36,175 nucleotides of DNA from Oscillospiraceae bacterium. Its GTDB lineage: Bacteria; Bacillota; Clostridia; Oscillospirales; Oscillospiraceae. A program made the translations under genes and the position numbers. Positions within the stretch are counted from its first letter, which is position 1; every line of letters begins with the position of its first letter. The DNA lies in the NCBI GenBank assembly GCA_021200935.1, contig JAJQFY010000153.1, positions 15,500 to 51,674 of the forward strand. The letters are read 5' to 3'. Shown here in pieces: positions 1 to 18,375 of this stretch. The notes beneath the pieces were generated by a model. It made no database searches. It was not told where the DNA came from and saw nothing but the letters and a program-made list of their open reading frames with translations.

Positions 1-1104
1 AATTTCCGCGAAGGTGGCGAAGAAGGCCACCAGGCACATGGTTTGCCCGCAGGTCGTCCCCGGCTGAATGTGACCGGGCCAGCGGATAATCATGGGAACC
101 CGGTGGCCGCCCTCCCAAATGTCTGATTTGGAGCCGCGGAAGATATAGTTTGGATTGTGTCCGTGCTTGGCAAGCTCCTCGAAGCCCACGATGGAGGAGC
201 AGCCGTTGTCGCTGGTGAACACCACAATGGTGTCCTCCGCAATGCCCTTTTCCTCCAGCTTGTCAATCAGGCGGCCAATGAAGCCGTCTACCTGAAGAAC
301 AAAATCGCCGTAAGCCCCCAGGCCGGAGCGGCCCTTGTATTCATCAATGGGGAGCAGCGGCCCATGCACCGCAAGGGTGGGGTAGTAGATGAAGAACGGC
401 TCCTCACCCCCGGCGTACTCGTCAATTAGATCCAGCACCTTCTGGTCGCAGGTGGGGACGGCCTGCTCCAGGTCAAAGCCGCTCCAGGCCGGGCCCTTGT
501 CATAAAGAAACTCCGTGCCGGGGGAGGCGTGGTCGCAGTCGTCGCTGCCGATGGTGCAGTCCGGGACGGCCTGCGCCATCTCGTTTTCAATGAACAGGTA
601 GGGGGCCTGATCCAGTGAGGCGGCCATGCCGAAGTAGTAGTCGAAGCCCTTTGCGTTGGGGCCGTTTTTGATGGGCTTGGTGTAGTCCAGTCCCAGGTCT
701 GGGCGGCGCTTGTCCACCAGCGGCATATGGATGGTCAGCTTGGTGTTGTCCACTGTCTCCCAGTCCATGCCCAGGTGCCACTTGCCCACACAGGCGGTGC
801 GGTAGCCCTGCTTTTTCAGCATGGAGGCAATGGTCTCCCGCCCTGGCTCAATCAGGGCGCGGGAGGTGCCGGGCAGAACAAGATTTTTCAGCTCAGAGCG
901 CCAGTTATACCGCCCGGTCAGCAGAGCGTAGCGGGAGGGGGAGCAGACGGCGGAGGAGGCATGGCAGTCCGTAAAGCGCATCCCCTCCTGGGCCAGTTGG
1001 TCGATGTGGCTGGTGTGAATCTTGGAATCGGGATTCATGCAGGACACGTCGCCGTAGCCCAGGTCGTCGGTCAGGAAAAAGATTATATTTGGATTTTTTG
1101 CCAT
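1..1104 (-). CDS. Sulfatase (arylsulfatase family, Cys-type), C-terminus truncated by window edge
   Basis: Own translation of the minus strand from ATG at 1104: MAKNPNIIFFLTDDLGYGDVSCMNPDSKIHTSHIDQLAQEGMRFTDCHASSAVCSPSRYALLTGRYNWR...; contains CxPSR formylglycine motif, LTDDLGYG metal site and VGKWHLG motif. No stop before window start, so absent from the ORF track. No signal peptide at the N-terminus. Confidence 0.93.
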   Translation of the reverse strand, partial: MAKNPNIIFFLTDDLGYGDVSCMNPDSKIHTSHIDQLAQEGMRFTDCHASSAVCSPSRYALLTGRYNWRSELKNLVLPGTSRALIEPGRETIASMLKKQGYRTACVGKWHLGMDWETVDNTKLTIHMPLVDKRRPDLGLDYTKPIKNGPNAKGFDYYFGMAASLDQAPYLFIENEMAQAVPDCTIGSDDCDHASPGTEFLYDKGPAWSGFDLEQAVPTCDQKVLDLIDEYAGGEEPFFIYYPTLAVHGPLLPIDEYKGRSGLGAYGDFVLQVDGFIGRLIDKLEEKGIAEDTIVVFTSDNGCSSIVGFEELAKHGHNPNYIFRGSKSDIWEGGHRVPMIIRWPGHIQPGTTCGQTMCLVAFFATFAEI

Positions 1105-1135: not shown

Positions 1136-2575
1136 TCAGAATATCAGATTCGTCCAGAGATAACCAATCGTCAGCAGGAACACACAGCACACCAGCAGCG
1201 TGATAAGGCCCTTGCTGTAGGCGAAGGTGGGCTTGAAGTTGGGGTTTGAAAACATCATGCCGGCGGAGGGAGAGGCAGAGGGCAGGCACACAGCATAGTG
1301 GGTGCCGATAGCCAGGAGGATGACGACGGCATAGATGTTGATGTTCACCGTGTCGGCCATTGCGACCACAATGGGAATCATCAGGCTCATAATAATCAGG
1401 TTCTGGGCCAGGTTTGTGAGGATAACGCTGACGAGAACCATGATTGCCACAAAGACCCACGCGGGCCTGCCGCTGACCAGCGGCGTAAGAACGTTGCTGA
1501 TAAGGGTGACGATACCTGCGTCGTCAGAGGTCAGGGCGGAGCCCATGGGGGCGATCAGGGCGACCATCATGACCATAGGCCAGATTACCCCCTTGGAGGC
1601 GGCTTCCTGAATCCGAATAATAGGCTTTCCGTCCACGCGAATCAGGCAGAGCAGCAGCACCACGATAGAGGCTATCCCCAGAAGGCTCAGGTCGTTGAGC
1701 ATTGTTTTCAGCGCACAGGCGGGCAGAACAGAGGGAACCAGCAGCACCACGATCATGGCGACCACGATGCCGATAACGATTTTCTGGCGGATATTCAGCA
1801 CCAGGGCGTCTTTATTCACAACGCTGTCGTCAATGTCGGAGAGATTGGACACATCAATGCGGAACACGAACTTGCACAGCAGGATGAAGATGATGATGCC
1901 GCAGATGCCCAGAGGAACCATGGCGACGATGTATTTCAGCGGGTCGATGACCATGCCGCCGGTCATGGCGGTGAACTGGTTATTGACGACCAGGCCGTTT
2001 CGCATGAAGGGCAGATAGATAATGCCGATGCCGGAGGCGAAGCAGGTGCCGAATATCATGGCAACGCTCCAGGGACTTTTGCGGTCAATCTTCACTGTAT
2101 CGCACACGGCGAAAATGATCTCCCAAAACAGCAGCATGGCGGCCTCCGGAGAGATGATGGACAGCAGGGAATCCCCCAGCAGCACGGCGAAGGAGAACAG
2201 CCAGGGGCGGCCCCGAAGCACCTTGCGGCTGATAATCCAGTTGGCGAAAAAGTCTGTGACGTGTTCGGCCTGCATGGCGTAAAGAATGATAAACACCATG
2301 ATCATGCCCCACACGGTGGTGGAGCCGAACATGCTGACAACGGAATCGCTGAAGCTGCCCGAGGCAAGGCCCAGCTTAATGATGGCGCACAGGGACGGGA
2401 AGAATACATCCACTGTGGACATACCGTATACGACGCCCACCAGAACGCCCAGCACCTTCATGCCGTAGCTGGTGACAGGCCCCACGCCGGGGAGCGTTCC
2501 GATGACGATCATCAGTGCGACTGTTATAATGCAGTGGATCAGCGGCAGACCCTCTTTTTTTGTCTTTTGAGCCAT
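1136..2575 (-). CDS. SLC13/DASS-like anion permease (multi-TM transporter)
   Basis: 479 aa, many hydrophobic segments, TNLAQNLIIMSLMIPIV and LPSASPSAGMMFSNPNF-type segments typical of DASS/ArsB-NhaD-like permeases; 31 bp upstream of the sulfatase on the same strand. Confidence 0.75.
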   Translation of the reverse strand: MAQKTKKEGLPLIHCIITVALMIVIGTLPGVGPVTSYGMKVLGVLVGVVYGMSTVDVFFPSLCAIIKLGLASGSFSDSVVSMFGSTTVWGMIMVFIILYAMQAEHVTDFFANWIISRKVLRGRPWLFSFAVLLGDSLLSIISPEAAMLLFWEIIFAVCDTVKIDRKSPWSVAMIFGTCFASGIGIIYLPFMRNGLVVNNQFTAMTGGMVIDPLKYIVAMVPLGICGIIIFILLCKFVFRIDVSNLSDIDDSVVNKDALVLNIRQKIVIGIVVAMIVVLLVPSVLPACALKTMLNDLSLLGIASIVVLLLCLIRVDGKPIIRIQEAASKGVIWPMVMMVALIAPMGSALTSDDAGIVTLISNVLTPLVSGRPAWVFVAIMVLVSVILTNLAQNLIIMSLMIPIVVAMADTVNINIYAVVILLAIGTHYAVCLPSASPSAGMMFSNPNFKPTFAYSKGLITLLVCCVFLLTIGYLWTNLIF

Positions 2576-3992: not shown

Positions 3993-5105
3993 GTGGACAC
4001 GGTATCACTTTTAATCAAGCCCGCCTCTGGCCGGTGCAATTTGCGGTGCAGGTATTGCTTTTACGAGGATGTGACGGAGCATCGGGCAGAGGCCGACCTG
4101 GGCTTTATGACCGAGGAGACCCTGGAACGGCTGGTGGCCCAGGCCATGGAAACCGCCCGGCGGCGGGTGAGCTTTGCCTTTCAGGGTGGAGAGCCTATGC
4201 TGCGGGGGCTGCCGTTTTTTCAAAAATTTGTGGAGCTGGAGGAGCGTTATGGCAGGCCGGGGCTTCAAATCGAACATTCCATTCAGACCAACGGCACCCT
4301 GATAAACCAGGAGTGGGCGGATTTCTTCCGGGAAAATCGGTTCCTGGTGGGGCTTTCCCTGGACGGCACGCGGGAGCTGCACAACGCCAACCGGGTGGAC
4401 GCCAGGGGCAAGGGTACCCGGGACGCGGTTGTTCGCTCCCTGGGGCTGCTGCAAAAAAATCAGGTGGATGTGAATCTTCTCTGTGTGGTAACGGGAGCGA
4501 CAGCGCGGCGGGGGCAGGCGGTCTACCAGAGCCTGAAAAAGCTGGGCTGCCGCTATATGCAGTTTATCCCCTGCCTGGATCCGCTGGAGATGGAGCGGGG
4601 CGGAATGGCCTATTCCCTCTCGCCCCAGCGGTACGGTCAGTTTTTGTGCGTAGTTTTCGACCAGTGGTACCGGGACTGGGCGGCGGGGGACTATGTCAGT
4701 ATTCGTACATTCGATGACTATGTACATATACTGGCCGGGCAGCCCGCTGGTACCTGCGCCACAGCGGGCCGGTGTGGGCAGTATTTCGTGGTAGAGGGGG
4801 ATGGGAGCGTCTATCCCTGCGATTTCTTTGTGCTGGACGAGTGGCGCATGGGCCGCCTTGGGGAGCAGTCCCTGGCGGAGCTGAGCCAGTCGCCGGTAGC
4901 GGCCCGGTTTTGCAGCGAGGGGCGGGGCGCGCCGAAAGCCTGCGCGGGCTGCCCATGGCTGCCGCTGTGCAATGGCGGCTGCCGCCGGGATTGGGTGGGC
5001 ATGGAACGAAACTACCACTGCCAGGCCCTGCGAACCTTTTTTGAGTACGCCTACCCCCGCATGGAGCAGATCGCCCGCCTGGAAAGACAAATGCGCGGAC
5101 GATGA
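3993..5105 (+). CDS. Anaerobic sulfatase-maturating enzyme (radical SAM/SPASM)
   Basis: CNLRCRYC radical SAM motif, FAFQGGEP, SIQTNGTLIN, SPASM cysteines (GRCGQYFVVEGDGSVYPCDFF...CAGCPWLPLCNGGCRRD). GTG start. Close to a CxPSR sulfatase. Confidence 0.92.
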   Translation: MDTVSLLIKPASGRCNLRCRYCFYEDVTEHRAEADLGFMTEETLERLVAQAMETARRRVSFAFQGGEPMLRGLPFFQKFVELEERYGRPGLQIEHSIQTNGTLINQEWADFFRENRFLVGLSLDGTRELHNANRVDARGKGTRDAVVRSLGLLQKNQVDVNLLCVVTGATARRGQAVYQSLKKLGCRYMQFIPCLDPLEMERGGMAYSLSPQRYGQFLCVVFDQWYRDWAAGDYVSIRTFDDYVHILAGQPAGTCATAGRCGQYFVVEGDGSVYPCDFFVLDEWRMGRLGEQSLAELSQSPVAARFCSEGRGAPKACAGCPWLPLCNGGCRRDWVGMERNYHCQALRTFFEYAYPRMEQIARLERQMRGR

Positions 5106-5160: not shown

Positions 5161-6657
5161 TTATCCGCAGCAGGGGTGATGGGTGGTGTCGTCCCGGCTG
5201 TGGTTGTTTTGGCTGGGATCCTTCATGCACAGATGCACGGCGGTGGTGGTGAAGGCGCGGGGGAGGGCCAGAATGTTGGGATTGGGGCCGACGATTTTGC
5301 GCTTGGCATCCTCCATCGCCTCCTCCACAGTGGCGCGTGTCTTGAGACCCATGCCGCGGGCAATGCCCGGTTCCCGTGCGCCTATGATATAGATGGCGCT
5401 GGTGTTCATCTCCGCGATATGGCCGCAGCTCATCATGGAGAAGCCGTGGAAGGGGTGGAAGGCGTTGGCGTAACGATACTTGCGGATGTATTCCGGGTTG
5501 GTGGCGAAATATTCCCCGTAGCGGTTCATATCCGGCAGAATCTGCATATAGTCGTGCTGGAACATTTCATACAGCTCCCGGAGATAGGGCCAGCGCTCGT
5601 CGTGGAACCAGCCGTCACAGATAGAGGGGACAATGAACACGCAGCGGTCGGACAAAATCCGTTTGTGGCGGATGACCTGGGCGGACAGGGCCTGCATCAT
5701 CTGGATAGGGTTGGTACCCATGCCGTTGCCGTAGTGGAAGTTGGTGGGCATACCGAATACCACCACGTCGTATTGCTTTTCCGCCCAATGGACATAGGTG
5801 CGCTTGTCGGCCACAGCCCAGCTCACAGGCTGCATTTCCTTCGCGTAGCCGGAGAAAATGGCGATTTGGCGGGATTTGCTGTCCAGCACCGCGTCGCAGC
5901 AGAAGAATTTCTTCCCCATCTTTTCCTCCATGAACATCCCCTGCTGGTCGAACTTGTTCCGCATTTCGCTGTTGGTGGATACGGGGACAAAATCAGGCCG
6001 GTGCATGACCTGGGGGACGTGATGGGCGGCAATGCTCCGCCAGTGGGTAATGCCGGTGGCACAGTGCTTATAGCCCCCGGAATAGCCGCCGTAGGGGTTG
6101 CCCTGGGTGTGGCCAATCAGGATGGCCACGTCCGCGTCGTAGACGTATTTGTTCATAATGACATGGTCGCCGTGGCTTGTATAGCCCAGGTCAACCAGGT
6201 GATCATAGTCCTCTGAGTCGTGGCTGGTGATCTGGCCGGTGGGATAGAACTGGGAAAAGAGCTGCTCGCCCAGGATGGTTTTCATCTCCGGCACGGTGGC
6301 GCGGGGGTGCAGACCGTTGGAAAACAGCAGCAGCACGTCCTGCTGCCGGACGCCGACGCTGTATAGCTCGTCCAGGCAGGCGGTAATGGCTACCTTGCGG
6401 TGGGAGGTGGGCTGGTTGCCGCCCTTGACGATGTCGGGGATGACGATCACCACCTTGTCTCCCGCCTTGGCAATCTCTCCCAGGGCGGGCATACCGATGG
6501 GGCTACGGATGGATTCCAGAGTGGCGGCATACAGACTGTCCCAGTCCTGGGGCAGGCAGGGCGGATCCGGCACCGTCTCGCCGGGGATGAAGACGTCTGT
6601 GCTGTCGGGCAGATCGGCGGACATCATGCCGTTGCCGTATTCAAAATCTAGCTTCAT
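5161..6657 (-). CDS. LarA-like (DUF2088) protein, lactate racemase / hydroxyacid epimerase superfamily
   Basis: FSNGLHPRAT and IGHTQGNPYGGYSGGYKHCATGI match LarA-type catalytic/NPN-cofactor motifs; ATG at 6657 preceded by GAGGAG. Confidence 0.8.
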   Translation of the reverse strand: MKLDFEYGNGMMSADLPDSTDVFIPGETVPDPPCLPQDWDSLYAATLESIRSPIGMPALGEIAKAGDKVVIVIPDIVKGGNQPTSHRKVAITACLDELYSVGVRQQDVLLLFSNGLHPRATVPEMKTILGEQLFSQFYPTGQITSHDSEDYDHLVDLGYTSHGDHVIMNKYVYDADVAILIGHTQGNPYGGYSGGYKHCATGITHWRSIAAHHVPQVMHRPDFVPVSTNSEMRNKFDQQGMFMEEKMGKKFFCCDAVLDSKSRQIAIFSGYAKEMQPVSWAVADKRTYVHWAEKQYDVVVFGMPTNFHYGNGMGTNPIQMMQALSAQVIRHKRILSDRCVFIVPSICDGWFHDERWPYLRELYEMFQHDYMQILPDMNRYGEYFATNPEYIRKYRYANAFHPFHGFSMMSCGHIAEMNTSAIYIIGAREPGIARGMGLKTRATVEEAMEDAKRKIVGPNPNILALPRAFTTTAVHLCMKDPSQNNHSRDDTTHHPCCG

Positions 6658-6665
6658 AGCGCTCC

Positions 6666-7505
6666 TCACTTTCCAAGATAGAGGCGGATAATTTCAAGGT
6701 ATTCCTCCGGGTAAAAGCCGATTTCCCCGGAAAACCGGGTCAGGGCGATAAGCCCCCCGTCAATTTCCGGGATGGAGGCCAGCATGGCGGCGTTGTCCGC
6801 CTTCAGCCCGCCGCCGTAGACCACCGGGACGGTCTGCCCCGCCTGCTCCTTGATGAAGCGGGCGATTTTGGTGATATAGGGCTTGTCCGCCGGGGTCTTT
6901 CCCGGCCCGATGGACCAAACCGGCTCATAGCCGATGGCAACGCCGCTTAAATCGGCCCCGGCCAGCCCAATGGAGAGCTGCTGACCTAATACCTGCTGCC
7001 ACTGCTCCTGCTCCTCGGAGCGTTCGCCGATGCAGTAAAGAACCTTCAGTCCGGCCCGCTGGGCGGCCAGAACCTCCTGGTTCAGCAGCCGGTTGACGGC
7101 GGCGGGGTCAGAAGCTCCGGCCTCCGCCAGAATACCGGCCTTGTCGTTTCGCTCCTCACAGTGGCCGATCAGCGTCCAGCCGCAGCCCATGGCCCGAACG
7201 ACGGCGGCGGGGCGGTTTGTGGTGAAGGCCCCGAAATTCCCGCCCACGGCCACGTCCTCCCGGAACACGCCCTGGGAGCCAAGGGAAAGGGGTACATTCT
7301 CCGGCAAGGCGGCAGCGACGGAGAGGAGATGAGCCTCCGGCAGGAAGTCCACGAAGGCGACCTGCGCTGGGTCGTAGCCCCCAAGGCCCTTCGCGGTCTC
7401 CCGGACGATATAGCCGCCCCACTGCTCCAGCGGCGCGATGCGGTTGACGCCGCCCAGCTCCGCGGGAACGTCAAAGCGTTTCAGGTTTAAAAAGATGTAT
7501 TTCAT
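6666..7505 (-). CDS. Triose-phosphate isomerase family protein, divergent
   Basis: LNLK (cf. NWK), LIGHCEER (cf. GHSERR), GYEPVWSIGPGKTP (catalytic Glu and loop 6); phosphate-loop motifs changed (YGGG, DGGLIALTRF). Confidence 0.85.
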   Translation of the reverse strand: MKYIFLNLKRFDVPAELGGVNRIAPLEQWGGYIVRETAKGLGGYDPAQVAFVDFLPEAHLLSVAAALPENVPLSLGSQGVFREDVAVGGNFGAFTTNRPAAVVRAMGCGWTLIGHCEERNDKAGILAEAGASDPAAVNRLLNQEVLAAQRAGLKVLYCIGERSEEQEQWQQVLGQQLSIGLAGADLSGVAIGYEPVWSIGPGKTPADKPYITKIARFIKEQAGQTVPVVYGGGLKADNAAMLASIPEIDGGLIALTRFSGEIGFYPEEYLEIIRLYLGK

Positions 7506-8788
7506 AGTGTTGCCCCCGGCTTTCCAAGATTTGCAAACATATAGGCTTTATAGCCCTCCACACCGGGCTGGTCAAAGGGGTTCACGCCCAGCAGGTGGCA
7601 GGACAGATAGCAGGAAAACAGAAAGAAGTAATACAGCGCGCCCAGGGTCGCCGCGTCGATGGCGGGAATACTCAGCAGCAAACAGGGGATGCCCCGGTCA
7701 CTGTGGGCGGCCATGGTGGCCCGGAAGGCCACGTTGTTCATGGCCCAGAAATCCATGCCCTCTAAGTAGTCGAAGTAGTCCTTCTTCTCCTCGTGGGGCA
7801 TAATGACGCTGGCGTCCTGGCCCCGCACCTCCAGGAAGGTCTCAAAGAGGATGGGGCTGCCCTGCTGGACGAATTGGCCGGTGGTGTGAAGATCCTCCGA
7901 GTTGGAGGCGGCGACAGGGTAGAGGGCGGTGTTGTTTTTGCCCTCGCTCTCCGCAAAGGTCTGTATCCACCACTTGGCGAAATAATCCAGCCTCGGCTCG
8001 AAATAACTGAGCATTTCCAGATGATAGCCCCTGTCCAGCAGCAGCTTCCGCAGGCAGGCGTATTGCAGGGCGATATTTTCCCCCGCGCTCTCATGCCAGA
8101 GCCTGTCCCGCATGGAGCGCATACCGCCCACCAGGGCGCGGATGTCGATCCCGGCCACGGCCATGGGGAACAGCCCCACGTCGCTGATAACGGAGAACCG
8201 TCCGCCCACCCGTTCCGGGAAGGTCAGGAAGGTATAGCCGTTGTCCCGGCAGAGCTGGTGCAGGGTGCTGTCCGGGGTGCCGGTGGCGAAAATGCGCCCG
8301 GCGGCGTTCTCCGCGCCATAGCGCCGTTCCAGGTATTGGCGTAGCACCCGGAAGGCAATGCCCGGCTCCAGGGTCTCAAAGTTTTTGGCAATGCAGTCGA
8401 TGTATACGGACTTGTACCCGTCCAGCTCCTCCAGCAGGCGGGCGGTCTCGCAGGCGGAAATGGTGTTGCCCGCCCACAGGATCGCCGGGCCGCCCTTGGG
8501 CCGCAGGGCCTTGATGGCGGCGCGGGAGGACTGGTTGGAGCCGCCAATGCCAATGACCACAAAGGCATCCCCGTCGGCGCGAACCCGCCGGGCCTGCTCC
8601 AGGAGAAAATCAAGCCGTTCCTCCCCGGCGGTATCGTCCACCCGGAACCAGCCCAGGTAGTCCCGGTATTCCTCCTCGCCGTCAATCACACGTTTCAAAA
8701 GACCGGCGTTGTCTGCCATCATGGTTTCCAGCGCGCCGGGGGCCAGAACCCCCTTTCGGTCGGTGTAGGTCAGGGTGATGCCGTCCAC
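7502..8788 (-). CDS. Glucose-6-phosphate isomerase family protein, divergent phosphate loop
   Basis: VIGIGGSNQSSRAAIKAL, VGGRFSVISDVGLFPMAVAGID, EDLHTTGQFVQQG, GVNPFDQPGVEGYKAYMF. GTG start at 8788 just after the aldolase stop (the ORF track start at 9040 overlaps the aldolase). Confidence 0.9.
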   Translation of the reverse strand: MDGITLTYTDRKGVLAPGALETMMADNAGLLKRVIDGEEEYRDYLGWFRVDDTAGEERLDFLLEQARRVRADGDAFVVIGIGGSNQSSRAAIKALRPKGGPAILWAGNTISACETARLLEELDGYKSVYIDCIAKNFETLEPGIAFRVLRQYLERRYGAENAAGRIFATGTPDSTLHQLCRDNGYTFLTFPERVGGRFSVISDVGLFPMAVAGIDIRALVGGMRSMRDRLWHESAGENIALQYACLRKLLLDRGYHLEMLSYFEPRLDYFAKWWIQTFAESEGKNNTALYPVAASNSEDLHTTGQFVQQGSPILFETFLEVRGQDASVIMPHEEKKDYFDYLEGMDFWAMNNVAFRATMAAHSDRGIPCLLLSIPAIDAATLGALYYFFLFSCYLSCHLLGVNPFDQPGVEGYKAYMFANLGKPGATL

Positions 8789-8790
8789 GG

Positions 8791-9948
8791 TTACACCTCC
8801 CCCGCGGCGTAGCGCCGGGCCATTTCCTCCAAAGTGATCGGCTCCACCAGGTGGGCGCGGCCCACGCTGCCGAACTCCACGATCAGGGTTCCCACGACCT
8901 CCCGGACGCCACGGCGCATGGCGTCGGTGACAAGGGCCACCGTGCCGTCGTCCCCCGTTCCGTACATCAGCGTGTCCATCACCGGCGGCAGGAACACGCG
9001 GGGGTCGAAGGCGTCCCGCCGCTGATCCAGAAGCGTCCATATGCCGCCGATGCGCTCATCCTGCTTCAAGTCCGGGCGGCCTTCAAACAGCTCCCGCAGG
9101 TTGCGGGTAACAGCCAGACGAATGTCGGTGTCCACATTTATCTTGCTGATTCCGCAGCCGATGGCGGCCTTCAGCTCGTCTTTGGAGATGCCGTGGGCGT
9201 TTGTCACCTGGCCCCCCAGGGCGTTAATTTCATTTACGATGTATTGCGGCACGGTGGAGGAACCGTGGCTCACCAGCGCCCCCTTGATGCCCGCATGGTT
9301 CATGCACTCCCGGATGGCGGTGGGGATCTCCCGGCGCAGCTTCACGTCCTTGCCCTTGTTGGCCCCGTGCATGGTGCCATAGCTGATGGCCAGGGCGTCC
9401 ACGCCGGTTTTCTGGAAAAATTCGATGGCGGAAAGGGGGTTCGTATAGGTGGAACCGGCGGCGAAGACATGATCCTCCACCCCGGCCAGAACTCCCAGCT
9501 CGCCCTCCACGCTGACGCCTCTTGCGTGGGCGTACTGCACCACGGCGCGGGTCAGCTCCACATTCTCCTCAAAGGGGAGGGAGGAGCCGTCGATCATCAC
9601 AGAGGTGTAGCCCCCCTCGATGGCGGCGGCGCAGGAGTCGAAGTCCTTCCCGTGATCCAGGTGCAGCACCACGGGGATAGGGCTGTTTTCCGCGAAGCGC
9701 CGCACGGCGGCGGCAATATTTTTCGCCCCCCGCTTCTTGTCCTCCAGGGTGCCTTTGGCGAAATCCACCGCGCCGCCCATAAAGGCGTTGGCAAGGTCGG
9801 CCCCCCGCAAAATGGCGGGAGAACGGAACAGCTCGTGTATTTGAATGACGGCCTCGGCCTGGGCCACGGCGTTTACATTGAACGCCCCCTGGGCATAGCC
9901 GTTCGCAACGGCGTCGTCCAGCACGGGACGCAGAGGAATCAGCGGCAT
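8791..9948 (-). CDS. Class II (metal-dependent) fructose-bisphosphate aldolase family
   Basis: YAQGAFNVNA, VVLHLDHGKDF, VEGELGVLAGVED, YGTMHGANKGK, LVSHGSSTVPQ, ISKINVDTDIRLA. Confidence 0.92.
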   Translation of the reverse strand: MPLIPLRPVLDDAVANGYAQGAFNVNAVAQAEAVIQIHELFRSPAILRGADLANAFMGGAVDFAKGTLEDKKRGAKNIAAAVRRFAENSPIPVVLHLDHGKDFDSCAAAIEGGYTSVMIDGSSLPFEENVELTRAVVQYAHARGVSVEGELGVLAGVEDHVFAAGSTYTNPLSAIEFFQKTGVDALAISYGTMHGANKGKDVKLRREIPTAIRECMNHAGIKGALVSHGSSTVPQYIVNEINALGGQVTNAHGISKDELKAAIGCGISKINVDTDIRLAVTRNLRELFEGRPDLKQDERIGGIWTLLDQRRDAFDPRVFLPPVMDTLMYGTGDDGTVALVTDAMRRGVREVVGTLIVEFGSVGRAHLVEPITLEEMARRYAAGEV

Positions 9949-9974: not shown

Positions 9975-11114
9975 TTAATGTGCTTGATATACGGTTTTCC
10001 CTGCGACAATGGTGCGCTGCACCGCCAGCTCCGGGGTCAGCAGCACCAGGTCGGCGTCCCGCCCGGGGGCAATGCGGCCCTTGTTCCAGCCCATCATATC
10101 TGCGGCGTTGGCGCTGGTGACAAGAGACGCCTCCTCCAGAGTGAGGCCGGCGTGGGAAATGAAGTTTTTCAGCGCCTGTACCATAGTCAGGGTGCTGCCT
10201 GCCCGTGTGCCGTCGTGGAGCTTGGCGTCGCCCTGCTCCACCACCACGTCGTTGACGCCCAGCTTATAGTTCCCGTCCGGCAGTCCGGCGGCCATAATGC
10301 TGTCGGTGATGGCGACAACGCGGCGCAGGCCCTTGATTTTAAGATACAGCCGCACCGAACCATAATGCAGATGGCGGCCATCACAAATGGTCTCGCAGTA
10401 GGCGTCGGACTCCATAATGGCCCCCCAGATGGCAGGCTCATGCTGGTGGAACAGGCGCATGGCGTTTCCCACATGGGTACCTGCCGCCGCTCCGGCGCGA
10501 ATACAGGCCATGGCCTGGTCATAGGCGGCGCCGCTGTGGCCGATGGACACCTGGATGCCCATATCCCGCAGGGCCGGGATAAGGTCTGCCGCACCCTCCA
10601 CCTCCGGGGACAGGGTGACATAGGTGATATGCCCCTCCGCCGCCTGCTGGTACTGCCGGAACAGGGACGGCTCCGCCTTCTTCAGCAGGAGATGCTCCGG
10701 CATACTGCCCCGGTATTCCTGAGACAGGCACGGCCCCTCCAAATGAACGCCCATCAGGGCCGCGCCGTCTGCGCTGTGCATGGCCTGACGAATCTGCTGA
10801 ATACACCAGAGGGTCTGCTCCTGGGTGTCGGTCAGCACCGAGGCGTTCCAGGCGGTGACGCCCTGGGAGGCGAAGAAGTATGCCACATCCGCCAGATCCG
10901 CCGGGGTGGAGGCGTTCACGTCGTGACCGTGGCCGCCGTGGGTGTGCAGGTCGATAAAGCCGGGGAGAACGGTCAGTCCGTCCGCGACTATGCCGCCGGG
11001 CTTTCCCTTTGATGGCTCCAGGGCGGTGATTTTTCCGTTCTCCACCAGAATATCCGCCTGGCAAAAGCCCTGGGCTGTCAGCACCCGGCCCCCGGAAATA
11101 CGCATAACGCCCAT
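9975..11114 (-). CDS. N-acetylglucosamine-6-phosphate deacetylase (NagA) family
   Basis: GFIDLHTHGGHGHD, GVHLEGPCL, SIGHSGA, GTHVGNAM, CDGRHLHY, AITDSIMAAGLPDG. Confidence 0.88.
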   Translation of the reverse strand: MGVMRISGGRVLTAQGFCQADILVENGKITALEPSKGKPGGIVADGLTVLPGFIDLHTHGGHGHDVNASTPADLADVAYFFASQGVTAWNASVLTDTQEQTLWCIQQIRQAMHSADGAALMGVHLEGPCLSQEYRGSMPEHLLLKKAEPSLFRQYQQAAEGHITYVTLSPEVEGAADLIPALRDMGIQVSIGHSGAAYDQAMACIRAGAAAGTHVGNAMRLFHQHEPAIWGAIMESDAYCETICDGRHLHYGSVRLYLKIKGLRRVVAITDSIMAAGLPDGNYKLGVNDVVVEQGDAKLHDGTRAGSTLTMVQALKNFISHAGLTLEEASLVTSANAADMMGWNKGRIAPGRDADLVLLTPELAVQRTIVAGKTVYQAH

Positions 11115-11115
11115 G

Positions 11116-11937
11116 TCAGAACGGGGCCTGGGCGGCGGTGGCGTTCACATACAGCACCGCGTCAGGATGCTTTTGGGCCAGGGTGGCCGGGAAGGCGGAG
11201 GTAACGTCGCCATAGGCGGCCCGGCGGCAGACGGCCCGGTGCCAGTCCCGGAAGACGGCCAGACGCAGCTTTTTCGCGGAGAGTATCTCCTTCATGCCGA
11301 TGGTGACGGCCCGGCGGGGCATGGCCTCCAGCGCGCCCCCTAGATCGCCCACCGCGTTGGTGGCGCGGGTCTCCGGGGCAATGTCCAGCACCCGCGTGGT
11401 CAGGGCGGCGAAAGCCTCCACCGTCAGCTCCGGCTGCGGCTCGTTAAAGGCCAGATGGCCGGTGATGCCGATGCCGCCCACGCACAGATCTGCGCCGCCC
11501 AGCTCCTCCAGAAGGGCGGTCAGGCGGTCTGGGGCCTTGGGATCGGGGAATATCCGCTGCTCCGGGGGCATGACCAGGGCCGGATCGATTTTGGTGTAGA
11601 CCTGCCGATTCATAAAGCCCCGGAAGGAGAGGGGGCTGTCCTCCGCTATCCACTCGTCCTCGTCGGTCAGGTACTCGTCCATGTTGAAAAACCACACGTT
11701 TTTCAGGGACAGCCGCTCCTGATTCACCAGGCGGACGAAGATGGGGTACTGTCCCACCGGCCCTACCGGGCATATCATCACCGTGGGGCGATTTGCGGCG
11801 TTGTTCTCCCGAACCTCCCGGCACATCAGGCTTGCCAGCTCATAGAACACCTCGCCGGAATCCCCCAGCTTTACCAGGGGCAGGCTGGCGCCCTCACCCA
11901 GTTGCTGGGGCGGGATATGGTAATACTCGTAGCTCAT
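11116..11937 (-). CDS. NagB-like (glucosamine-6-phosphate deaminase/isomerase superfamily) protein, divergent
   Basis: WFFNMDEYLT, GGIGITGHLAFNEPQPE, ETRATNAV, RAVTIGMKEIL; phosphate-loop GTGSTP/PTGGTP replaced by CPVGPVGQYP. Confidence 0.82.
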   Translation of the reverse strand: MSYEYYHIPPQQLGEGASLPLVKLGDSGEVFYELASLMCREVRENNAANRPTVMICPVGPVGQYPIFVRLVNQERLSLKNVWFFNMDEYLTDEDEWIAEDSPLSFRGFMNRQVYTKIDPALVMPPEQRIFPDPKAPDRLTALLEELGGADLCVGGIGITGHLAFNEPQPELTVEAFAALTTRVLDIAPETRATNAVGDLGGALEAMPRRAVTIGMKEILSAKKLRLAVFRDWHRAVCRRAAYGDVTSAFPATLAQKHPDAVLYVNATAAQAPF

Positions 11938-11949
11938 AGTTTCTCCTCC

Positions 11950-12633
11950 TCAAAGGAATAAATGCTCTAACCCAAGCTGCCGTATCAGCTTGACGATCTC
12001 TCGTGTGCGGGAGCAGCCGAATTTTTTCAGCAGACCCCGTATCTGTGTTTTGACTGTTACCTGCTCCACCTGGCGGATTTGGGCGATTTCCGCGATTTTT
12101 TTGTCCTCCAGCAGCAGCTTTACCAGACTGCGCTCCGCCGGGGTCAGCCGCCCCACGTTGGTGATGAAGTAGAGCAGGGATTTTTCACTCTGCCGCAGGC
12201 GCTTATAGTCCCGCATGAGCGCCTGGCCGACCAGGGGTTCCAGCCGGGTCTCCCCCCGGTAGGCCCGGCGGATGTGGTCGCAAAGAACCTCGTCCTCGCA
12301 GCTTTTGACCACATAGTCCACCGCCCCGGAGGCCATGGCGGCGGTGATCATGTCGTCGGTCTCATGGACGGTCAGGAAGATGATTTTCATGTCGCCGTTG
12401 ACGGCATGGATGCGTTCGGACGCCTGGATGCCCGCGTGGATATGCTCCATCTCGATGTCCATCAAAATCACGTCGCAGGGGACGGTCTCCGCCAGGGCGC
12501 AGACCTCCCGGCCAGAGGCGGCGCTTCCGGCCACGGTCATATCCGGCTGGGCGGCAATAATATCGCAAAAGCCCTCCCGAAGAATGTCCATGTCCTCCGC
12601 CACGATGACCCGTATTTTCTCATGCTCCTCCAT
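11950..12633 (-). CDS. NarL/FixJ-family response regulator
   Basis: Receiver domain RVIVAEDMDILREGF...VILMDIEM...KIIFLTVHE...GAVDYVVKS plus LuxR-type HTH LTPAERSLVKLLLEDKKIAEIAQIRQVEQVTVKTQIRGLLKKFG; 14-bp overlap with the kinase gene. Confidence 0.88.
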   Translation of the reverse strand: MEEHEKIRVIVAEDMDILREGFCDIIAAQPDMTVAGSAASGREVCALAETVPCDVILMDIEMEHIHAGIQASERIHAVNGDMKIIFLTVHETDDMITAAMASGAVDYVVKSCEDEVLCDHIRRAYRGETRLEPLVGQALMRDYKRLRQSEKSLLYFITNVGRLTPAERSLVKLLLEDKKIAEIAQIRQVEQVTVKTQIRGLLKKFGCSRTREIVKLIRQLGLEHLFL

Positions 12634-14143
12634 GACTTCCTCCTCTCCCGGCGTCGTACAGGGGCAGCATGACGAGAAAAACGGTGCCGCCGCTGTCTGA
12701 GCGTTCCAGCCGAAGATGGCCCAAATGTCCCTTGACGATTTTGCGGGCGTAATACAGACCCATGCCCCAGTTGGAGTCTGCGTTTTTGCTGGTGTAGAAC
12801 GGTTCAAATATCCTGCTGCGAAGCCCCTTGGGAATACCGCCCCCGTTGTCCAGGACGCGAAACGCCGTCCACAGCCGCTCGTTTTCCACCCGGAGAATAA
12901 CGCGGGGCTGGTCTGCCTCCGTCGCCAGCGCCGCCTCGTAGCCGTTGATGAGAAGGTTATACAATGCCTCTCCCAGGGCCTCGGCGTCAGCCAGAACAGA
13001 GCGGTCGGAGCGCAGGTCAAGGGCTATGGCCCCGTCGGGGTATTTATCCCGGAACCGCTGAATGGCCTGGTTTCCCGCCTCCGCGGCGGTGATGGGCGTC
13101 AGGGTCAGGGCGTTATCCTTAAACACCCGGTATATCTGATCCATGCGGGTGAGCATCCCGTCGTTCAGGGCTTGGAGCTGCGCGGCCACAGACCGGGCCT
13201 GGGCTATATTCGGCGGCTCCTGGGCTAAAACCTGTTCCAGCCTGCGGCGGAGCATACGGCTTGCCAGAAGCTGATTTTTAACGCTGTGGACAAATACAGA
13301 GACCCCTATACCGGCGGCGTCAAATTTCCGCTGGAGCAGGATCTCCTCCTTGTTTTCGTCGTAGTCAATGCGGGTATAGCGCAGCGCGCCGTAGCTTCCC
13401 AGAAGGGTGCTGGCCAGGGAGGCGAGAAGCAGCGCGTCCCAGCCCTGCTCCGACATGGCGGCGCTGATATAGGTGGGAAAGCCCAGCCGCAGGTATTCTG
13501 TGATGAACTGATTATAAATCTGGGCCGGGTCCTTGGTGGCGTAGATAAGATACAGCGCCGTTACGCCGCAGACAGACAGCACCATATACCCGAAATTCCG
13601 CCGAAAAACAGAGATGGAGGTGTCCCGGTACTCCTTCAGCATGAGCAGGAGGGAGGCGCAGACGCAAAAAATGACCCAGGCCATGGCCGCCCAGCTCAGG
13701 GGACGGAGAAGCCACAGACAGCGGGAAATCAGCCCCCGAAACACCGGGGGATAGTAGTATACAAGAAACAGCACCGTGAAACCGGCGGCCACGGCTATCA
13801 GCTTATGGGCCTGCCGCCGCACCCAGGGGAGCATACTGGACTTTACCGACAGCATACATAAAAAGAAGGGCAGAAGCATCCGCCCCAGGGCCACGGCATA
13901 GCCCACCTGGCTGAACGTAATGGGCAGATACCGCAGCCAGCGCTGAATATCCGCAGAGAGGAACAGCGCCCGCCTGGCTGTGGCGGCCAGGCCGCCCATC
14001 TGGGCGATATAGATGACAACCCCGCCCATCATGATAACATTTGCCAGGTTTACCAAAAACAGCATCAGAGACTGAACGGTTCGGCTCCAAATCACTGTCA
14101 CCAGCGACACGGCCACGCAAATCAAAATTACGACCAGCAGCAC
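12620..14143 (-). CDS. Membrane sensor histidine kinase
   Basis: Multi-TM N-terminus, HSVKNQL H-box, NLLINGYEAA N-box, LDNGGGIPKGLRSRIFEPFYTSK, GMGLYYARKIV. GTG start after GAGGAGG. Confidence 0.87.
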   Translation of the reverse strand: MLLVVILICVAVSLVTVIWSRTVQSLMLFLVNLANVIMMGGVVIYIAQMGGLAATARRALFLSADIQRWLRYLPITFSQVGYAVALGRMLLPFFLCMLSVKSSMLPWVRRQAHKLIAVAAGFTVLFLVYYYPPVFRGLISRCLWLLRPLSWAAMAWVIFCVCASLLLMLKEYRDTSISVFRRNFGYMVLSVCGVTALYLIYATKDPAQIYNQFITEYLRLGFPTYISAAMSEQGWDALLLASLASTLLGSYGALRYTRIDYDENKEEILLQRKFDAAGIGVSVFVHSVKNQLLASRMLRRRLEQVLAQEPPNIAQARSVAAQLQALNDGMLTRMDQIYRVFKDNALTLTPITAAEAGNQAIQRFRDKYPDGAIALDLRSDRSVLADAEALGEALYNLLINGYEAALATEADQPRVILRVENERLWTAFRVLDNGGGIPKGLRSRIFEPFYTSKNADSNWGMGLYYARKIVKGHLGHLRLERSDSGGTVFLVMLPLYDAGRGGSHGGA

Positions 14144-14264: not shown

Positions 14265-15395
14265 TCAGCTCACAGAGACAAACAGGTCGTAGGCCTGCTG
14301 CATAATATCGTACAGGACATACTCCTCAGTGTCTACCGTTTCCGTAATGCGGCCATTGTCGATAAAGACGTTCTGCTGGGTCTCATACACGGTCTTGATG
14401 GCGTCCATGTCGCCGCAGACATCCAGGATGGTGTACCAGTCGGCCTCCTCCAGGCACTCAAGCATGGTGTCCTCGTCCACATCCAGGTGATGGGCCAGGT
14501 TGATGGCGGTCTCCTCAATGTTGGCGGCACGCCACTCGTGGGCCAGGTTCAGAGCCGCGCCGAAGCGAACCAGCACGTCGGAGTTCTCCTCGGCATACTC
14601 AGCGGTGGTGATGTAGCTGGAGGGGAAGATGGCGGAATCCAGGAAGTCGGCGTTGCCGCCCAGGTTAATGCAGCTATCCCCAAGCTGGGTCTGCACGGTG
14701 ACGCTGTTGGGACTCCAGATGGCGCAGGCGTCAACCTGGCCGGAGATCATGGCGGTGGTCATAACGTCCACGGTCATCTCCACCAGCTCCACGCCGTCCT
14801 CGGTCAGACCGGCGGAGTAAAGCACCTGCTGAAGGATGATCTCAGAGGAGGTGCCGGACTGAACGGCAATGGTCTTGCCAGCCAGGTCGGCGGCGGTAGT
14901 AATGCCGCGGTCGGCGTTGGCCAGCACGCAGTCGGACAGGGAGGTGGTGTGATCCATAGCGAAGATGACGGCGTTGCCTTCAATGCAGAGGGCATGAGCG
15001 CCGTGGCCGATCTGGGAGATGTCGATGTCGCCGGAGGCCATAGCCGCGATCTCAGCGGGGCCGCCCTCGAACTCGTAGACCTCCACGTTCAGGCCGAACT
15101 GCTCGAAGTAGCCCTGGTCAATGGCGACAAACAGCGTAGCGGCGGAACCCATGTTAGGCATATAGGCCACGCGGACAGTGACTTCCTCGTACTCAGTGGC
15201 TTCGGCCTCGGCTTCCGCCTCGACTTCCTCGGTCTCAGGCTTAGCCTCGTCCTCGGTTTCGGCGGCCTCTTCCGTCTCAACCGTCTCTTCGGTCTCAGCG
15301 GCGTCGGCAGCCTCGTCGCCGGAGCTGCTGGAGCCGCAGGCCGCCAGGCCCAGCACCATACACAGCGCCAGCAGCAGTGCAAGTAGCTTTTTCAT
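14265..15395 (-). CDS. NMT1/TauA/SsuA-type ABC transporter substrate-binding lipoprotein
   Basis: Lipobox LALCMVLGLAACGSSS; VRVAYMPNMGSAATLFVAIDQGYFEQFGLNVEVYEFEGGPAEIAAMASGDIDISQIG; acidic E/T/A-rich linker after the Cys. Confidence 0.88.
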   Translation of the reverse strand: MKKLLALLLALCMVLGLAACGSSSSGDEAADAAETEETVETEEAAETEDEAKPETEEVEAEAEAEATEYEEVTVRVAYMPNMGSAATLFVAIDQGYFEQFGLNVEVYEFEGGPAEIAAMASGDIDISQIGHGAHALCIEGNAVIFAMDHTTSLSDCVLANADRGITTAADLAGKTIAVQSGTSSEIILQQVLYSAGLTEDGVELVEMTVDVMTTAMISGQVDACAIWSPNSVTVQTQLGDSCINLGGNADFLDSAIFPSSYITTAEYAEENSDVLVRFGAALNLAHEWRAANIEETAINLAHHLDVDEDTMLECLEEADWYTILDVCGDMDAIKTVYETQQNVFIDNGRITETVDTEEYVLYDIMQQAYDLFVSVS

Positions 15396-15468: not shown

Positions 15469-16260
15469 TTACTTGCGGACGGCCAGGTATTCCTGATAGA
15501 CCTGGTTCCAGATATAGTTTTTCAGCTCCAGGAACCGGGGGGACATTTTGGTTTTCTGGTCTCTGGGGTAGGGGATGTCGATGTCCACAACGTCCTTCAC
15601 CCGACCAGGGCGGGCGCACATGACCACCACGCGCTCGGCCAGGATGATGGCCTCCTCCACGTCGTGGGTGATGAAAAAGCAGGTCTTCTGCTCCTTCTCC
15701 CAGGTCTCCAAAAGCTCAGACTGGAGCTGCGTCCGGGTCTGGGCGTCCAGCGCGCCGAAGGGTTCGTCCATCAGCAGAACCTTGGGGTTTACGGCGTAGG
15801 CCCTGGCAATGGCCACCCGCTGCTTCATGCCGCCGGAAAGCTCCTTGGGATAAGACTTGGCAAAAGCCTCCAGATCCACCATTTTCAGATATTTATGGGT
15901 GATCTCCGCCCGTTCCTCCTTGTCCACGCCCTGGAGCTTCAGACCAAACTCCACGTTTTTCTCCACCGTAAGCCAGGGGAACAGGGCGTACTGCTGGAAC
16001 ACGATGCCTCGATCCGGGCCGGGGCCTTCCACCGGCTTTCCGTCCACCAGAACGGAACCCTCCGTGGGGGCCTCCAGGCCGCCGATGATATTCAAAATTG
16101 TGGATTTACCGCAGCCGGAGGGACCGACAACGCAGACAAACTCGTTTTCATGCACGTCCAAATCCATGCCGTTTAAGGCGACGACCTCGCCGTTGCGGCT
16201 GTTGAATTTCTTGACAACGTGGTCGATTTTGACCTTTACTGCTGAATCGTTTCCTGCCAT
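15469..16260 (-). CDS. ABC transporter ATP-binding protein (TauB/SsuB-like)
   Basis: Walker A GPSGCGKST, signature ELSGGMKQRVAIARAY, Walker B VLLMDEPFGALD, ITHDVEEAIILAERVVVM. Confidence 0.95.
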   Translation of the reverse strand: MAGNDSAVKVKIDHVVKKFNSRNGEVVALNGMDLDVHENEFVCVVGPSGCGKSTILNIIGGLEAPTEGSVLVDGKPVEGPGPDRGIVFQQYALFPWLTVEKNVEFGLKLQGVDKEERAEITHKYLKMVDLEAFAKSYPKELSGGMKQRVAIARAYAVNPKVLLMDEPFGALDAQTRTQLQSELLETWEKEQKTCFFITHDVEEAIILAERVVVMCARPGRVKDVVDIDIPYPRDQKTKMSPRFLELKNYIWNQVYQEYLAVRK

Positions 16261-16994
16261 CCTGTAAGCTTCCTTTCCAAAAACTTGACGATACGTTCAA
16301 AGATGATGCCCAGCAGCACCACGTCCATCTGGTAATAACCGCTGGCCTTTTGGATCATCATGCCAAGGCCCCGGTCGCCGCCGACGATTTCGGAGGCCAT
16401 CAGCGTGGTCAGAGAGGTGGACAGGCCCAGCCGGGCGGCCACCAGTATGTACGGTGTGGAGGCGGGGAGGGTGATGCGGAAGAAGATGTCCCGCTGCTTG
16501 GCGCCCAGAACCCGGGCAGCCTTTATAAGCGTGACGTCCACGCCCTTCACGCCCTGGTAGACGGTGACGACCATGACCAGGAAGGCGGCGATGGCGATAA
16601 CCGTCACCTTGCCGGTGTTGCCGATGCCCAGGGCGGCGGTGATCAGGAACACATAGGCCAGGGGCGGGATGTTGCGGATGAACATGATCCAGGGCTCCAC
16701 CACATGGCGGAACGGCTCATACCAGACCATTAAAAACGCCGTGGGAATGGCCAGGACAAAGGCGCAGAAGAAGCCGGTCAGCACGCGGGACAGGGAACTC
16801 CAGATATGCTCCCACAGAATGCCGCTGGTAAACCCCTTGTCCACAAAGGCGAGCCAGACCTTATAGGGGTTTGCGAAAATGACGGGCCAGCGGCTGGAGG
16901 CCAGCAGCCACAGGGCCACGGCCACGCCCAGAGAGATGATCAGCCAGACAAAATTTGGTATCTTTGCCCAGACGGATGATTTTTTCAGGTTCAT
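16236..16994 (-). CDS. ABC transporter permease (TauC/SsuC-like)
   Basis: Multi-TM; EAA-like loop KAARVLGAKQRDIFFRITLPASTPYILVAARLGLSTSLTTLMASEIVGGDRGLGMMIQKA. Confidence 0.92.
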   Translation of the reverse strand: MNLKKSSVWAKIPNFVWLIISLGVAVALWLLASSRWPVIFANPYKVWLAFVDKGFTSGILWEHIWSSLSRVLTGFFCAFVLAIPTAFLMVWYEPFRHVVEPWIMFIRNIPPLAYVFLITAALGIGNTGKVTVIAIAAFLVMVVTVYQGVKGVDVTLIKAARVLGAKQRDIFFRITLPASTPYILVAARLGLSTSLTTLMASEIVGGDRGLGMMIQKASGYYQMDVVLLGIIFERIVKFLERKLTGWQETIQQ

Positions 16995-17102: not shown

Positions 17103-18245
17103 TTACAATCGGGCCATGGTGGGAAGACCGCCGCCGGTCAGTGGACGGCACCAGTCCACAAAGTCCCGGGTCACGCTCTGGCCGTCAGGGGATATGAACG
17201 CGTCCGGCATACGCCGTTCGCCCAGCATGACCTCCTCAATGGGGGCCAGGAAGGTCTCCACGCCGTATTCCGGCCCGGCAATGCGGCGAAAGGCCACCAT
17301 CTTCCGATTTTCGCCGCCCAGAACGGCCTGACAGGCGATCCGTCCGGCCAGCTCGGCCTCGGCGGCGTCCACCGGGGACTGCCAGGCAATGGAGGCGCGG
17401 GCCAGGATACCTGGCTTTTCGCTCCGGGCCTTGATGCCCAGCCGCCGCACCACAAGCTGTGCCAGGTGGGAGGACACGTCCCCGAAATAGACGCTGCGGC
17501 CCGTCTGGAACAGGGGCGGCACGATGGGGGTTCCCGTTTCGTCCCGCAGGCCCTCGCTGGCTACCACAATGACGCCGCCCAGCCGGTCATACAGGGTTTT
17601 GACGGTGTCCAAAAATTCCTCCTCCCGGAAGGGCCGTTCCGGCAGATAAATCAAATGTGGCGCGTCGCCAGAAAGCTCGGCGGCCAGGGCGGAGGCGGCG
17701 GTTGTCCAGCCCGCGTTGCGGCCCAGAGCCTCCACAATGATCACATGAATGGGCAGGGAGCGCACGTCCGCCGCCAGCTCCCGGATGGTTCCGGCCATAT
17801 AGCGGGCCATGCTGCCATAGCCGGGGCAGTGGTCGGTGACGGCAATATCGTTGTCGTGGGTCTTGGGGATGCCCATGACCCGGATGCCGCGGGACTGGCA
17901 CACGTCGCCCAGCTTGCCGCAGGCGTCCATGGTGCCGTTGCCCCCGTTCATCAGCACATAGCGGATATTATGGGCCTCCAGCACCTCCGTCATGCGCGCA
18001 TAATCCGCCTGCTCCAGGGCGTCCCGTGAGGTTCCCAGAAGGGAGCCGGGGGTGGAGGGAAGAAGGGAAAGCGTCTCCTCCGGCAGGGTTGAAAGCTCCG
18101 TCAGCCGCTCCCGCAGAAGGCCCCCGGTGCCGCCGACTGCGCCATAGACCCGTTCCACCTCGCCGCTGTCCATGGCCTCCCTGACCGCCCCATATAAGGA
18201 GCAATTCAATACTGCGGTAGGCCCTCCGCCATGAATAATAACCAT
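17103..18245 (-). CDS. 6-phosphofructokinase family (PPi-PFK-like clade), divergent
   Basis: IHGGGPTAVLN, NGGNGTMDA, GIPKTHDNDI, TDHCPGYGSMARY, VEALGRNAGWTTAASAL. ATG at 18245 preferred because the homology begins there. Confidence 0.85.
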   Translation of the reverse strand: MVIIHGGGPTAVLNCSLYGAVREAMDSGEVERVYGAVGGTGGLLRERLTELSTLPEETLSLLPSTPGSLLGTSRDALEQADYARMTEVLEAHNIRYVLMNGGNGTMDACGKLGDVCQSRGIRVMGIPKTHDNDIAVTDHCPGYGSMARYMAGTIRELAADVRSLPIHVIIVEALGRNAGWTTAASALAAELSGDAPHLIYLPERPFREEEFLDTVKTLYDRLGGVIVVASEGLRDETGTPIVPPLFQTGRSVYFGDVSSHLAQLVVRRLGIKARSEKPGILARASIAWQSPVDAAEAELAGRIACQAVLGGENRKMVAFRRIAGPEYGVETFLAPIEEVMLGERRMPDAFISPDGQSVTRDFVDWCRPLTGGGLPTMARL

Positions 18246-18375
18246 ATTCCCCCGCAAGCAAATCGCCTCGCTTTCGCCGTTATCCGGCACGACATAGGTA
18301 TAATCTGATAGCCTATACTTTATCAGACACGCCGCGTATTTGCCAAGAGGGAGGACAATAGGAAACGCCGGGGCA

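Follow-up and report, generated by a model that had tools for sequence, protein, structure and literature searches.

The window analysed here, a stretch of 36,175 nucleotides from an Oscillospiraceae bacterium (assembly GCA_021200935.1, contig JAJQFY010000153.1, positions 15,500 to 51,674), carries an operon on its minus strand whose first gene encodes a PFK-like kinase of the PPi-PFK subfamily (17103-18290; PRK14072, 376 bits). The next genes specify an ABC transporter permease (16236-16994; Pfam BPD_transp_1), a profile-matched ABC transporter ATPase of the nitrate/taurine/sulfonate type (15469-16260) and an SsuA/NMT1-type substrate-binding protein (14265-15395; Pfam NMT1, and TIGR01728 at 138 bits, below the cut-off of 163.5). 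They are followed by a histidine kinase (12620-14143; Pfam HATPase_c) and a response regulator (11950-12633, start inferred; Pfam Response_reg). Further along the same strand lie a NagB-like deaminase (11116-11937; assigned by profile match and by comparison with PDB entries and the paralogue of the same genome), a NagA-like deacetylase (9975-11114; TIGR00221, over the cut-off), a class II FBA-like aldolase (8791-9948; NCBIfam/Pfam and PDB comparison), a PGI-like aldose-ketose isomerase (7502-8794, start inferred; Pfam and PDB comparison), a TIM-like isomerase (6666-7505) and finally a LarA-like protein of the single-histidine nickel-pincer subfamily (5161-6657). One cluster thus holds a sulfo-EMP-like set of aldose-ketose isomerase (PGI/NagB-like), PFK-like kinase and FBA-like aldolase. 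The operon is without a PTS or a sugar kinase, and the genome also encodes canonical TIM, PGI, PFK and NagB.

On the strand opposite to the operon lies a gene for an anaerobic sulfatase-maturating radical SAM enzyme (3993-5105, plus strand; TIGR03942, 393 bits, over the cut-off), and 6 of 80 related loci have such a maturase close to the cluster. A DASS-type anion transporter (1136-2575, minus strand; Pfam CitMHS, TIGR00785 below cut-off) and a Cys-type sulfatase with the motif CSPSR and no obvious signal peptide (1-1104, minus strand; Pfam Sulfatase, 179 bits) complete this end of the window. The sulfatase gene (L093:15233-16627) crosses the window edge, and part of its stretch beyond the window reads N; it sits between the DASS transporter and a TauE/SafE gene located just beyond the window (L093:14181-14966, contig C38). 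We rejected the sulfatase as a core component of the cluster, given that a nearby sulfatase turned up in just one close relative, with weak matches in two more. Plasmid carriage was also considered and gave no match.

The TIM-like protein (279 aa) is encoded by an intact open reading frame that holds every motif quoted in the first-pass annotation: NLK at residues 7-9 (7487-7479), GHCEER at residues 114-119 (7166-7149), YEPVW at residues 193-197 (6929-6915), YGGG of loop 7 at residues 230-233 (6818-6807) and DGGLIALTRFSGE of the loop 8 region at residues 249-261 (6761-6723). It scores 109 bits against Pfam TIM, well above the gathering score, compared with 302 bits for the TpiA of the same genome; with the NCBIfam TIM equivalog TIGR00419 it reaches 71 bits, short of the 130.6 cut-off. 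An AlphaFold2 model (pLDDT 83.6) adopts the TIM fold and finds TIMs as its nearest structures, with TM-scores of about 0.7-0.8; loops 84-95 and 199-202 fall below pLDDT 50. In canonical TIM, the Ser of loop 7 and the GG of loop 8 bind the substrate phosphate. TpiA, the second TIM gene of this genome (contig C176), displays the canonical YGGS and GLIGGASL, whereas the TIM-like protein shows YGGG and GLIALTRFSGE, which together span 6723-6818 on the minus strand; the interval 6725-6816 marked in the first-pass annotation covers both loops. That annotation regarded the phosphate-gripping loops as lost. The GG of loop 8 is indeed gone, but the loop has also gained an insertion of about six residues that brings in Arg257, which is new and invariant; loop 6 is kept in an altered form (SIGPGKT versus AIGTGKT/R).

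How general are these changes? Scanning a collection with a single genome for each species, we obtained 317 stretches that encode TIM-like relatives and kept the best 80 (71-80% identity, plus one near-identical MAG). Lys9, His115 and Glu194, the catalytic residues, are invariant in 81/81 sequences (the window protein and its 80 orthologues), as are YGGG in loop 7 and ALTRF in loop 8, a degree of invariance to be expected within a set partly chosen by query-derived patterns. Five independently found relatives of about 50-55% identity likewise show YGGG and ALT[R/K]F. Both the presence of the catalytic triad and the replacement of YGGS by YGGG, as first reported from the single sequence, therefore hold throughout the family. 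In a maximum-likelihood tree, 20 TIM-like proteins separate from 25 canonical TIMs with a split support of 100/100, although a long stem leaves the root and the exact origin of the clade uncertain; the protein does not fall inside housekeeping TpiA, a placement that would have spoken against the reading of the first-pass annotation. The sequence comparison thus identifies a TIM paralogue. Its identity as the housekeeping TpiA is ruled out by the separate TpiA gene and the tree split, and a degenerate or misread gene by the intact reading frame and the invariance of the altered residues. By its phosphate grip and its score below the cut-off the protein lies outside TpiA, and it probably works like TpiA on another substrate.

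We compared the phosphate sites of the neighbouring enzymes with PDB alignments and with the paralogues of the same genome; the phosphate-binding residues of NagB, PGI, NagA, FBA and PFK are established family knowledge. The NagB-like protein retains NMDEY and GHxAFNE, and in 56/56 sequences its ATGSTPVG has become PVG--PVG, two residues shorter, with the phosphate-side Lys replaced by WHR. In the PGI-like protein the phosphate loop SKSGTT reads AKNFET, still with its Lys, and GIGGSYLG reads GIGGSN (18/18). HHRE(P) is changed to HQHxP in the NagA-like protein, the catalytic residues being retained (HLEGP, TDS; 57/57). The FBA-like aldolase retains the side that binds the DHAP phosphate (HGSST, NVDTD) and its arginines, and the loop at the 6-position is changed (ILQGADLANAFMG; 61/61), while the PFK-like kinase retains two arginines and has a new EKPG (55/55). 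The TIM, NagB and PGI paralogues encoded elsewhere in the genome have canonical motifs. The change is coordinated across the set: contacts to the 6-phosphate are lost or changed in the TIM-like protein and, independently, in the NagB-, NagA- and PGI-like proteins. The FBA- and PFK-like proteins keep the arginines to which a 6-phosphate normally binds, so these two may still accept phosphate. Taken at the level of sequence, the changed sites fit a sugar that would carry an anion other than phosphate on C6 and would receive its phosphate at C1.

The LarA-like gene directly follows the TIM-like gene in 66 of the 71 loci with enough sequence, the two being separated by some 14 bp (median). Its product aligns across its whole length with LarA_Bw (PDB 9q3j; 829 bits), retains the Lys and His for the NPN cofactor and carries the subfamily-defining Asn (QGN), which is present in 66/66 gut loci and in five distant clusters as well. 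Structures of single-histidine LarA enzymes (LarA_Bw and LarA_Sp; PDB 9q3j, 9q2u) were solved in 2025, the substrate was not found, and Gatreddi et al. saw glycolysis-like neighbours (PMC12611868). Our proteins share with theirs the Asn in place of the second catalytic His and the NPN-binding Lys/His; a loss of phosphate sites or a sulfur context was not reported in that study. Our data suggest that the LarA-like enzyme acts on the product of the TIM-like enzyme. LarC is encoded in 18 of 20 checked genomes that bear the module, including all 13 reached via named loci; the exceptions are two MAG relatives, G021 and G012. LarC (PF01969) was also not found in the assembly of the window itself (G000), nor was LarE (TIGR00268) over the cut-off in G000 and G012, although LarA is present. 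Because 18 other module-bearing genomes have LarC, these absences are likely assembly gaps; a LarA that does without NPN was set aside, incomplete assembly being the simpler reading.

The genes upstream of the TIM-LarA pair are exchangeable. Among 42 loci of at least 20 kb, NagA or NagB occurs in 40, FBA in 35, PFK in 33, TauE in 24 and PGI in 11, and the PFK-like gene is co-located with the TIM-like gene in most loci. Most loci have FBA and PFK; in L058, L062, L070, L071 and L076, an FSA-family transaldolase directly upstream of TIM-LarA replaces them; and L128 and L135, from one distant genome (G072), combine TIM-LarA with an SDR, two DHDPS-type aldolases, an SMP-30 lactonase, tripartite tricarboxylate transporters and two arylsulfotransferase-like genes. 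No dehydratase was identified within the immediate cluster of this last, ED-like case, which makes an ED-like reading weak. A UxaA-type dehydratase homologue is encoded about 15 kb from TIM-LarA in G072. Sulfoglycolysis is known in EMP, TAL and ED versions (PMC12890257; PMC11489063), and by analogy every upstream variant would end in a C3 aldehyde that carries the former C6 group. A mannose-6-phosphate-isomerase-like protein, possibly an alternative aldose-ketose isomerase, is encoded in or beside some clusters (L126:7562-8668; L015, L016, L073).

Could the anion contain sulfur? A TauE/SafE protein of the sulfite-exporter family is encoded in 36 of 80 gut loci (tblastn); four out of the five distant clusters have one as well, three of the four having been examined with Pfam. 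Distant relatives of about 50% identity have the same TIM-LarA-TauE module alongside a homologue of the sulfoquinovose isomerase SftI, the sole NCBIfam match of this protein in three distant genomes (309-316 bits, E of about 1e-92, below the cut-off of 700); a tblastn search of the 80 gut loci returned no SftI homologue. Another distant cluster encodes a pair of binding proteins from the SsuA family, which score 155 and 163 bits against a cut-off of 163.5. Three independent lines, namely TauE, the exchangeable upstream part and the SftI homologue, point to sulfur as the likely constituent of the anion. Two other genes were seen in the distant group: an aldehyde dehydrogenase, best matched by lactaldehyde dehydrogenase (494 bits), near two TIM-LarA-TauE clusters (L129:14479-15924 and L132:854-2329), and an MtaA/CmuA/HemE-like protein whose gene immediately precedes that of the SftI homologue in three clusters (L125:16370-17599, L129, L131).

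Which sugar would the gut clusters use? GlcNAc-6-O-sulfate is common in mucin. Our first guess, and the substrate we prefer, is this mucin-derived sugar, because the gut clusters encode NagA and NagB, often together with a DUF4838 protein, and because sulfoglycosidases can release GlcNAc-6-O-sulfate from glycans (PMC11659886). The DUF4838 protein is encoded in 22 gut loci (for example L040:15291-17168). A PDB sequence search with it gave no match; its structural model (pLDDT 88) is nearest to GH20/GH84 N-acetylhexosaminidases at a TM-score of only about 0.5, and GH67/GH115 glucuronidases rank just below them. Judged by this model, the protein may represent a new glycosidase that works inside the cell on sulfated amino sugars.

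From the sequence changes, the separate clade, the conservation and the gene association we infer a substrate and a series of reactions. On balance, we consider the TIM-like protein to be an aldose-ketose isomerase for a C3 aldehyde that bears a sulfur oxyanion at C3, placed in the lower branch of a sulfosugar glycolysis. A 6-sulfo(oxy) N-acetylglucosamine would be imported via the SsuABC-like transporter and deacetylated by the NagA-like enzyme; the NagB-like enzyme would then deaminate and isomerise it to 6-sulfo(oxy)-fructose, which the PGI-like enzyme could alternatively supply from a glucose analogue. Phosphorylation on C1 by the PFK-like kinase and cleavage by the FBA-like aldolase would yield DHAP and 3-sulfo(oxy)-lactaldehyde. 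The substrate of the TIM-like enzyme would accordingly be sulfolactaldehyde or glyceraldehyde-3-sulfate, from which Lys9, His115 and Glu194 would form the enediol and then the ketose, the sulfo group being held by the rebuilt loops 7 and 8 with the invariant Arg257. The single-histidine LarA, with the nickel-pincer as hydride carrier, would act on this product; a net loss of sulfite or sulfate would follow, possibly via methylglyoxal to lactate, which is a guess, and TauE would export the sulfur oxyanion.

This sulfosugar pathway is supported by the catalytic triad kept and the phosphate loops changed in 81/81 sequences, by the changed contacts of the neighbouring enzymes, by the adjacency of LarA (66/71), TauE, the swapping upstream modules, the SftI homologue, the SsuA-type proteins and the DUF4838 fold, and by LarC in 18 of 20 genomes. 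The proposal of the first-pass annotation that isomerase chemistry was kept for a different C3 substituent is well supported by the same sequence evidence: the triad, the family-wide rebuilding of the phosphate loops, the altered NagB, NagA and PGI contacts, the sulfonate-type transporters, TauE and the SftI homologue. The pathway is weakened by the scores of the SftI homologues and of the window SsuA, which lie below their cut-offs, by LarC and LarE not being found in the window's own assembly, by the 6-phosphate arginines kept in the FBA- and PFK-like proteins, and by the range of TauE-family proteins, which export several anions. It would also seem redundant, as the cytoplasmic sulfatase beside the operon could remove a 6-sulfate directly.

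Other readings have to be weighed against it. The group at C6 and later C3 could be a sulfonate in the gut clusters too, so that NagA and NagB there would handle a 6-deoxy-6-sulfo amino sugar (or the pathway would start from sulfoquinovose) rather than a sulfate ester; the TIM-like enzyme would strictly be a sulfolactaldehyde isomerase, and LarA would lead to C-S cleavage and sulfite release. The SftI homologue of the distant clusters, the identity of the TIM loops in gut and distant groups, the annotation of TauE as a sulfite exporter and the SsuA-type binding proteins all speak for it. We nevertheless hold it to be rather unlikely: most gut loci have NagA and NagB, we know of no abundant 6-sulfo-GlcNAc, and GlcNAc-6-O-sulfate is common in mucin and released by known sulfoglycosidases (PMC11659886). 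Somewhat less probable still is a lyase, in which the enediol is formed, the sulfur group leaves C3 to give methylglyoxal, and LarA moves a hydride from C1 to C2 of hydrated methylglyoxal to produce lactate, for which one His would be enough. TIM is known to form methylglyoxal as a side product once its phosphate grip is weakened, and a lactaldehyde-dehydrogenase-like enzyme is encoded near two distant clusters; the single His of LarA further speaks against ordinary racemisation (PMC12611868). Against a lyase stands loop 6, which protects the enediol and is kept and strongly conserved.

That the enzymes still use phosphosugars, with phosphate sites rebuilt from other residues in an operon dedicated to glycolysis of GlcNAc-6-phosphate, appears improbable. 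The phosphate-binding arginines of FBA and PFK and the phosphate-loop Lys of PGI are kept, and NagA still scores over the TIGR00221 cut-off, but canonical TIM, PGI, PFK and NagB are already present in the genome, the same contact is changed in four enzymes, and the operon combines sulfonate-type transporters and TauE with the lack of a PTS or sugar kinase. We regard as very unlikely a tetrose-phosphate isomerase in the role of EryH/EryI, or an enzyme whose triose substrate is uncharged or a carboxylate. There are TIM paralogues that fill such roles, as the first-pass annotation had suggested, and the LarA family usually acts on 2-hydroxy acids; that suggestion is disfavoured by the partner enzymes, which process hexosamines or hexoses, and by the loci examined, in which no erythritol or tetrose genes were noticed. 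The invariant new Arg of loop 8 argues for an anion, and the presence of TauE and of the SftI homologue speaks for sulfur.

How does the sulfosugar pathway compare with known systems? With TpiA (PF00121) the TIM-like protein shares the TIM-barrel fold, the catalytic Lys/His/Glu and the core of loop 6; unlike TpiA, it has other residues in place of the Ser of loop 7 and the GG of loop 8, carries insertions in both loop 3 and loop 8, and belongs to a separate clade. Like sulfo-EMP, TAL and ED, the pathway would employ an isomerase and a C1 kinase with an aldolase or transaldolase that lead to a C3 sulfo-aldehyde, and a TauE-type exporter; the SQ-isomerase homologue of the distant clusters adds to this likeness. 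The described routes reduce or oxidise sulfolactaldehyde (PMC12890257; PMC11489063), whereas here TIM-like and LarA-like enzymes would take over, with entry through NagA/NagB. NagA-NagB amino-sugar catabolism provides the same families and catalytic motifs (NMDEY and GHxAFNE; HLEGP and TDS), but here phosphate contacts are deleted or replaced, import is SsuABC-like and no sugar kinase is present. Within the open-licence PMC literature we found no description of GlcNAc-6-sulfate catabolism, of the TIM-like enzyme or of LarA in sulfoglycolysis. The cluster is apparently a widespread, undescribed variant of sulfosugar catabolism, in which the TIM-like and LarA-like enzymes probably process the final fragment that still bears sulfur; for this step we found no published description.

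With 317 TIM-like matches at one genome per species, gut Clostridia commonly carry the cluster; isolates that have it include Flavonifractor plautii ATCC 29863 and Catenibacillus scindens DSM 106146. Only tentatively do we propose that the TIM-like enzyme and the nickel-pincer LarA together make up a hitherto unknown lower branch that would recover the second three carbons and release sulfite or sulfate, by which hundreds of gut Clostridia would ferment mucin GlcNAc-6-sulfate, and their relatives sulfoquinovose, with neither a sulfatase nor a glycyl-radical lyase; LarA would then catalyse a new, non-racemase hydride reaction. The finding gives single-histidine LarA enzymes a concrete candidate substrate class. 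If true, the pathway would fill a gap in how sulfated or sulfonated sugars are used in the gut, and it would bear on mucus turnover and on the sulfite or sulfate that reaches sulfide producers.
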